Source: Natronococcus sp. AD-5 (GTDB lineage: Archaea > Halobacteriota > Halobacteria > Halobacteriales > Natrialbaceae). Taken from it: 64,000 nucleotides of DNA. The stretch covers positions 434,001 through 498,000 of the forward strand of contig NZ_CP132294.1 in NCBI RefSeq assembly GCF_030734285.1, given 5' to 3'. This document shows positions 57,244-58,410 of the stretch, piece after piece; the first letter of the stretch is position 1, and every line of letters begins with the position of its first letter. The notes beneath the pieces are model-generated. The model was not told where the DNA came from and did no database searches. It saw only the letters and a list, made by a program, of their open reading frames with translations. A program made the translations under genes and the position numbers.

Positions 57244-58032
57244 ATGGTCGCCGCGTGGAGCCCGGACGACGAGAAGGCCGTCGTCGGCGTCGTCGATCGC
57301 GAGACGAGCGCGAGCGAGTCATCCGCCGACGTGGACGACTCGCTCGAGGCCGCGCTCGCGGACCGCGACGCGTCGGTCGTCAGCGGCTCGATCGAGGACG
57401 TCCTCGCCGTGGAGCCGACGCTGCTGGTCGCAGCGGGCGAGGCGGACCTCTCGGCGGTCGCTCGGAGCGAAACGGCCACCCCCGTCCTTCCCGTCGGCGA
57501 CGTCGCCGGACTCGAGTCGATCCCGACGGACCGACTTCCGGAGGCGTTCGAGGCCGCGCTCGCGGGGGAGGCGCGGACGCAGAGCCGCCCCGTTCTCGGC
57601 GTCGAACTCGAGGAAGAGTCCTATCGCGCCCTGTTCGACGCGACGCTGGTAACCGACGAGCCGGCCCGGATCTCGGAGTACAGCGTCCGCAGCGGCGGCG
57701 ACCTCGTCGCCTCGTTTCGCGCGGACGGCGTCGTCGTGGCGTCGCCCGCGGGAACGGAGGGCTACGCGAGCGCCGTCGGCGCACCGTCGCTCTCGGCGGC
57801 GGTCGACGCCGTCGCGGTCGCTCCGATCAGTCCCTTCGCTACCCGAATGCGTCGGTGGGTGCTCCCCGACGACGCGGTTACGCTCGCGGTCGAACGCGAC
57901 GAGGGCGACGTCGTCCTCGTCGTCGACGGCCGATCGGTCGCCGCGGTTCCGGTGCGTTCGACGGTCAGTATCGCCGTCGACGGGGCGCTCGAGACGCTGG
58001 TCGTTCCGTCGGCGTCGCTCGAAGACCGGTAG
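57244..58032 (+). CDS. NAD kinase-like protein lacking the GGDG motif
   Basis: A 262-residue protein. The C-terminal half matches the beta-sandwich of NAD kinases: VTDEPARISEYSVRSGGDLVASFRADGVVVASPAGTEGYASAVGAP resembles the kinase region in which PTGSTAY is normally found. The N-terminal half, which should hold the ATP site and GGDG, is instead an acidic stretch (ASESSADVDDSLEAALADRD) with no glycine-rich motif. It may bind NAD(P) without phosphorylating it, or regulate a true kinase elsewhere. No enzymatic claim can be made. Confidence 0.72.
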   Translation: MVAAWSPDDEKAVVGVVDRETSASESSADVDDSLEAALADRDASVVSGSIEDVLAVEPTLLVAAGEADLSAVARSETATPVLPVGDVAGLESIPTDRLPEAFEAALAGEARTQSRPVLGVELEEESYRALFDATLVTDEPARISEYSVRSGGDLVASFRADGVVVASPAGTEGYASAVGAPSLSAAVDAVAVAPISPFATRMRRWVLPDDAVTLAVERDEGDVVLVVDGRSVAAVPVRSTVSIAVDGALETLVVPSASLEDR

Positions 58033-58164: not shown

Positions 58165-58410
58165 TTAGCTGTTGTAGGGCTCTTCGTCGCGGTGGTGGTC
58201 CGGGTTCGCGTTGCCGAGCGCGTCGTTCTCTCGTTCGTCCGACTGGTGTTCAATATCCTGGCGTCGCTGCTCTTCGTCCTGACGCTCCCGGGCTTTCTTT
58301 TCCTCTTCGGTCAACTCCTCTTCGTCCTCGTCGGCCTCGGTATCCTCGTGCGTCAGTTCGACGTCCCGCCCGTGCTCGTCTTTGCCGGTCTCGTCGCTGT
58401 TGTCGGACAT
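58165..58410 (-). CDS. Small highly acidic helical protein
   Basis: An 81-residue hydrophilic protein. About one third of its residues are Glu or Asp, with runs such as HEDTEADEDEEELTEEEKKA and a lysine/arginine/glutamate segment (RERQDEEQRRQDIEHQSDER) suited to a single long helix or coiled coil. No membrane helix or cysteine is present. It lies 82 bp before endonuclease III on the same strand. I do not know its function. Confidence 0.65.
   Translation of the reverse strand: MSDNSDETGKDEHGRDVELTHEDTEADEDEEELTEEEKKARERQDEEQRRQDIEHQSDERENDALGNANPDHHRDEEPYNS

Follow-up and report, generated by a model that had tools for sequence, protein, structure and literature searches.

What does an NAD-kinase-like gene encode when its GGDG catalytic motif is missing? 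The question is raised by an open reading frame in a 64,000-nucleotide stretch of the Natronococcus sp. AD-5 genome (the window; contig NZ_CP132294.1, positions 434,001 to 498,000), which runs on the + strand from an ATG at 57244 to a TAG at 58032 and encodes 262 aa plus the stop. We refer to it as nadK2, as the positional orthologue of HVO_0837. The original prediction had described a NadK-like protein without GGDG, recognisable in its beta-sandwich half and altered in its ATP-site half, and had proposed an inactive paralogue acting as an NADP sensor, a regulator or an enzyme with changed chemistry. The first part of this description was borne out. In a Pfam search the sole match was PF20143 (NAD_kinase_C) over residues 133-244 (E 3.1e-16, 59.7 bits, cut-off 23.7), PF01513, the N-terminal domain, was not detected, and the beta-sandwich half is recognisable by this match and by the segment DGVVVASPAGTEGYASAVGAP, which is found in the protein. 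The PDB sequence matches listed were NAD kinases or putative kinases of the NADK family (best 1yt5, E 1.2e-10). In a pairwise alignment the GGDG of the solved enzyme lies opposite AAGEAD, the protein reading V-A-A-G-E-A-D-L here, and by alignment no GGDG-like residues were found at the right place, the motif place being occupied by GEAD (residues 65-68, 57436-57447, + strand; family consensus G-E-x-A). Frame error and pseudogene as origins of nadK2 were ruled out by orthologous open frames in 95 aligned sequences, and the loss of GGDG itself is neither chance nor a frame error because it is common to the 109 rows (107 distinct) of the family alignment.

The proposed comparison of a predicted structure with NadK returned a full NADK fold. 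An AlphaFold model built from an alignment of 95 family members (mean pLDDT 93.3) superposed on P. aeruginosa NADK (7qvs_A) over 244 residues, spanning residues 6-257, with a Z of 26.6 and an rmsd of 2.1 (VIA-align), and the top 50 structures listed by Foldseek were NADK structures. Since both the Foldseek listing and the Z-score against 7qvs point the same way, the fold of both halves appears to be kept, and the protein is predicted to be a complete two-domain NAD-kinase fold in which the motifs alone are changed. The ATP-site half is thus altered as described in that GGDG is absent, but in the model this N-terminal half keeps its fold.

Searched with the protein, 182 of 195 Halobacteriales genomes gave a match, the total taking in weak ones, part of which are to other NadKs. 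The family was sampled through 60 loci from other families and 20 more, plus the loci of the initial searches, and was aligned in 98 rows, or 109 with extra divergent rows. According to a review, Asp85, Asn159, Glu160, Thr200 and Tyr202 are vital in M. tuberculosis Ppnk, where Tyr202 stacks on the nicotinamide and Asp189 is supplied by the adjacent subunit (PMC8553519), and according to a second paper, in LmNADK1 stacking occurs on Tyr163 with hydrogen bonding to Asp150 (PMC7660225). Across haloarchaea the loss proved near family-wide, with a literal GGDG in 1 of 109 rows and the place of its Asp occupied by E in 72/109 and by D in 14/109. The Asn of the NE/D short motif (57634-57639, + strand) occurs in 0/109 rows, the next carboxylate in 109/109 (D 104, E 5). 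The region-II Thr equivalent to Ppnk Thr200 is found in 5/109 and is Glu172 in the window's protein, next to Gly173 and the nicotinamide-stacking Tyr174 (equivalent to Ppnk Tyr202; 57757-57765, + strand), which is kept in 108/109. Asp161 (57724-57726, + strand), the equivalent of Ppnk Asp189, LmNADK1 Asp150 and Afnk Asp145, is present in 109/109. Scored for five canonical catalytic or binding features, 12/12 canonical NADK rows keep all five, the nadK2 rows keep two (102 rows), three (6) or one (1). Because almost all family members have lost three of the five residues essential in Ppnk, we regard the loss of NAD-kinase catalysis, judged from the alignment, as well supported. What nadK2 appears to retain is the intersubunit nicotinamide site, given that the Tyr and the Asp189 equivalent are kept and have these roles according to PMC8553519, with most of the phosphoryl-transfer machinery lost.

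Other positions have become fixed. Nine residues are invariant across the 95 aligned sequences, and of the 109 rows E139 is present in 97, S144 in 107, E145 in 105 and Arg218 (57895-57897, + strand) in 107, the last being found in 3/12 canonical rows. The first three lie in the family signature TDEPARISEY (residues 137-146, 57652-57681, + strand), which resembles the archaeal NadK segment TSxPAKI, and the window's protein fits the signature throughout: EPARISE[YF], RADG, PxxPF, W and R218, with GEAD in place of G-E-x-A. A GGDG hidden elsewhere in the family was discounted, as a literal search of the 109 rows returned only L087 (genome G026), where GGDG stands at the motif place but the NE Asn and the region-II Thr are missing; L088, from the same genus, is without the literal motif. 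Compared with canonical NadK/PpnK (Ppnk, LmNADK1, 7qvs), nadK2 shares the two-domain fold, PF20143, the trans Asp, the stacking Tyr, the NE carboxylate and the VDG Asp, but is without GGDG, the NE Asn, the region-II Thr and a detectable PF01513, and has EPARISE and R218 newly fixed.

The sequence relationships of nadK2 point away from nadK1. The nadK2 profile (A1) matched archaeal-type NadK from the phylum's other orders with E of about 1e-13 to 1e-43, and haloarchaeal nadK1 at only about 1e-13, in genomes where nadK2 was not found (e.g. G653). Similarly, in hhalign the nadK2 profile scored E 1.6e-28 against three archaeal NadK and 6e-18 against 50 nadK1, and the segments TSxPAKI, RADG, PLAPF and PWV are common to nadK2 and archaeal NadK. 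In a tree of 52 rows (ten having been removed from a 62-row alignment) nadK2 groups with archaeal-type NadK (98/98), apart from nadK1, in a topology with two divergent rows as long branches and a bootstrap that had not settled, and an AU test did not reject a nadK1+nadK2 clade (p 0.25). It is therefore likely, not firm, that nadK2 is a derived archaeal-type NadK and not a copy of nadK1, and of the "inactive paralogue" first proposed the inactivity is well supported, by the loss of three of five Ppnk-essential residues, but paralogue status carries this caveat. Probably nadK1 took over first and the ancestral archaeal NadK then lost catalysis. The canonical segment PxxP[HFY] is present in 96/98 nadK2 (looser pattern) and 0/50 nadK1 (stricter pattern), so the two proteins diverged from the canonical enzyme at different places; GGDG is intact in 50/50 nadK1 proteins read. 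The closest sequences to nadK2, the archaeal-type NadKs found in methanogen-group genomes and in families f9/f11 (L149-L156, L211, L212), differ in that those read retain GGDG and all catalytic residues. Families f9 and f11 are of the same order, and their archaeal-type GGDG NadK (L212, L211/L143) has scores intermediate between the haloarchaeal profiles; the G011 copy is part of an open frame of 413 residues.

Directly upstream of nadK2 in the window lies an M28 peptidase gene (PF04389; 55881-57191, + strand), with 52 bases from its stop to the nadK2 ATG. Of 69 nadK2 loci compared (68 plus the window), 38 have such a gene next upstream on the same strand and 44 have a small three-TM (3TM) protein gene downstream on the same strand. 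In many loci small TM genes lie farther on, on the opposite strand, followed by petD/petB-like cytochrome b genes, giving the common order nadK2 - 3TM - two small TM genes - petD - petB. The window and its compared family members are without the 3TM/cytochrome part and have nth instead, M28 standing upstream in the window. The small membrane protein encoded between nadK2 and the cytochrome b genes is conserved in many haloarchaea (L084 etc.; L268, L269), and in the window a very acidic 81-residue ORF (58165-58410, - strand) lies between nadK2 and the nth-like gene. As petD/petB of Haloferax volcanii are HVO_0841/HVO_0842, according to PMC8305020, the nadK2 family is the positional match of HVO_0837 'nadK2', an identity drawn from gene order (the petD/petB vicinity) alone. 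In the same source HVO_0837 is called a probable NAD kinase with 25% identity to nadK1 and open questions on its function, and PMC3986227 counts nadK2 among polyphosphate kinases; the missing GGDG is not mentioned in the parts available of PMC8305020, PMC3986227, PMC13318637 and PMC6675116.

One set of 392 genomes was searched with both the nadK2 profile (A1) and the nadK1 profile (A2), with presence cut-offs of E <= 1e-37 and E <= 1e-50, respectively, chosen after the lists had been seen, and with nadK1, nadK2 and fusion tallies counted by eye from the listings. Both genes were present in 354 genomes and neither in 29, nadK2 alone was absent from 8 and nadK1 alone from 1 (G698, 80% complete). 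Among the 335 genomes at least 95% complete, 325 carried both, 10 neither, and none was discordant. Seven of the genomes in which nadK2 alone was absent are 78% complete or less (G013, G028, G081, G089, G139, G176, G185), and the eighth, G653, is 91% complete; those with nadK1 but not nadK2 include two f13 genomes (78% and 66% complete). Five of the 29 both-absent genomes belong to f9/f11, scored as lacking both because those read, G011 and G009, carry the GGDG archaeal type, with G025, G037 and G048 assigned by family only. Co-losses occurred inside genera g6, g43 and g40, where other members keep both (in g40 the loss is in a single genome, of 88% completeness), as well as in g65/g178 within f4 and g51 within f6, which amounts to about five independent events (sign test, p 0.06 two-sided); Fisher p-values for co-occurrence were 2e-19 and smaller with kinship ignored. 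Genomes with an unusual nadK1 also have an unusual nadK2 (G003; G134/G169). That nadK2 is lost together with nadK1, and that its catalytic motif is gone, suggests a non-catalytic partner or regulator of NadK1. Of the roles originally offered, that of a regulator is the one favoured by this close co-occurrence (335 genomes, 0 discordant), a reading drawn from genomes only.

A GGDG NadK fused to an inositol-monophosphatase (IMPase) domain, NadK first and IMPase second by Pfam in one example (L236), was detected through its NadK-domain match in 76 of 392 genomes. Of the 24 genomes outside f9/f11 that lack both genes, 22 have it, the exceptions being G032 (71% complete) and G579 (99%), and so do 54 of the 354 genomes with both nadK1 and nadK2. 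Because cells in which the fusion stands in for the pair presumably still make NADP with it, yet nadK2 goes, nadK2 would depend on NadK1 and not on NADP generally. In G579 neither nadK1, nadK2 nor the fusion was found at the cut-offs, and its NADP source may lie in an assembly gap. Two genomes of g51 (G099, G111) show an empty nadK2 site, with 3TM and the small TM genes coming next after M28. The matched M28 and 3TM stretches are about 160-170 bases apart there, and the earliest possible 3TM start lies 159 (L269) or 87 (L268) bases beyond the M28 stop, against an M28-to-3TM distance of 808-1430 bases in 20 intact loci. The other loss genomes had an M28 gene match in 13 of 15 searched, with the M28 neighbours not recognised within the 1.5 kb examined. 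Weak 'nadK2' matches in the M28 loci L262-L266 (E about 1e-7 to 1e-8) fall on the M28 match itself and were rejected as spurious.

The two genes also covary in rate. With distances corrected in a simple way, and with either one control gene or two, the partial correlation of nadK1 with nadK2 was 0.72 with M28 removed (32 genomes; 0 of 2000 permutations as high), and 0.63 (17 genomes) and 0.66 (15 genomes) with M28 and a second control gene removed. Partial correlations with control genes were -0.18 to 0.21 for nadK1 and 0.36-0.51 for nadK2; as nadK2 also covaries with controls, the signal is only partly specific, and its support for a partnership is suggestive only.

Pseudoenzyme subunits are dead-fold partners retained beside an active relative, and a nadK2-NadK1 pairing would work alike, although the literature searched contained no pseudoenzyme partner of NAD kinase. 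The reading we tentatively favour, with confidence slightly short of even, is that nadK2 is a catalytically dead NAD-kinase-fold protein and a dedicated partner of NadK1, most likely a non-catalytic or regulatory subunit. To judge from the genomes, the NadK1 and NadK2 proteins would bind each other, NadK2 may lend Asp161 to the nicotinamide pocket of NadK1 and/or tune NadK1 through NAD(P)(H) binding of its own, and lineages replacing NadK1 with the NadK-IMPase fusion would no longer have needed nadK2. As the region-II Thr, vital in Ppnk, is lost, nadK2 may not bind NAD at all. The co-losses are few, some genomes carry nadK1 only, the genes are unlinked in the window's own genome (nadK1 at C1:3959504, nadK2 at C1:491244, not adjacent) and G579 lacks the pair and shows no fusion, all of which counts against a partnership. 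A stronger form, possible though doubtful, is that haloarchaeal NAD kinase is itself a hetero-oligomer with dead nadK2 as an obligate subunit, the pair being discarded as one unit in favour of the fusion. Here a different NadK (nadK1) would have taken over catalysis from the ancestral archaeal NadK, which then lost its own catalytic centre, nadK2 would complete or control the NadK1 nicotinamide site through the invariant Asp161, and nadK1 and nadK2 would go together where the NadK-IMPase fusion, possibly also an NADP phosphatase, takes over.

The (almost) invariant Asp161 and Tyr174 would equally suit a stand-alone NAD(P)(H) sensor, a homodimer with a nicotinamide site regulating a target other than NadK1, e.g. 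the neighbouring peptidase or the respiratory cytochrome b genes, and the gene order with M28, 3TM and petD/petB-type genes is kept in many families. Such a sensor leaves unexplained why nadK2 is absent exactly where nadK1 is missing while M28 stays, and the cytochrome genes are not adjacent in the window's family, so we consider it unlikely. We rank slightly lower an enzyme with changed chemistry, e.g. an NADP(H) 2'-phosphatase or other nucleotide hydrolase balancing NadK1. It would account for the newly fixed polar residues E139, S144, E145 and R218, and what takes the place of nadK1+nadK2 is a NadK carrying an inositol-monophosphatase domain, a domain type for which NADPase activity is reported, in PMC8553519, for the methanogen enzyme MJ0917. 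A site formed by the new conserved residues is putative, and the fusion also occurs beside the intact pair in 54 of 354 genomes. Nor are hydrolases that have the NADK fold known to us, which counts against this chemistry.

That nadK2 is still an NAD kinase, as annotated, with a relaxed motif in which Glu replaces the GGDG Asp, is improbable. The place of the Asp does hold E or D in many rows, GGDG is literal in L087, and the E160-equivalent carboxylate is universal (109/109), but the GGDG Asp, the NE Asn (0/109) and Thr200 are each vital in Ppnk according to PMC8553519, and a canonical nadK1 accompanies nadK2 in almost all the same genomes, with GGDG in all 50 read. A decaying, functionless relic, which the loss of the catalytic motif might suggest, is already strongly disfavoured by open reading frames with nine invariant residues in 95 aligned sequences and by the retention of nadK2 in 355 of 392 genomes, its absences coming partly from incomplete assemblies.

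In a model haloarchaeon this gene bears the annotation of a second NAD kinase; should it prove to be a dead partner, the picture of NADP synthesis in the order would have to be corrected. NAD kinase, reviewed as homomultimeric in PMC8553519, would gain a hetero-oligomeric form, and nadK2 would clearly exemplify a core enzyme that was displaced yet kept in a non-catalytic role across a whole archaeal order. The window's own genome encodes further NadK-like proteins: a fusion-group NadK at C1:1688405-1689244 (- strand) in a 580-residue frame and, on the smaller contig, a second fusion-group copy whose frame a TAG interrupts (C2:455254-456096, + strand; L003, L004 for both), as well as another GGDG protein at C1:408372-409385 (L002, L046), which has a 436-residue frame and both NAD-kinase Pfam domains. 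Frames of about 355-460 residues with PF20143 were also found in genomes without nadK1 and nadK2.
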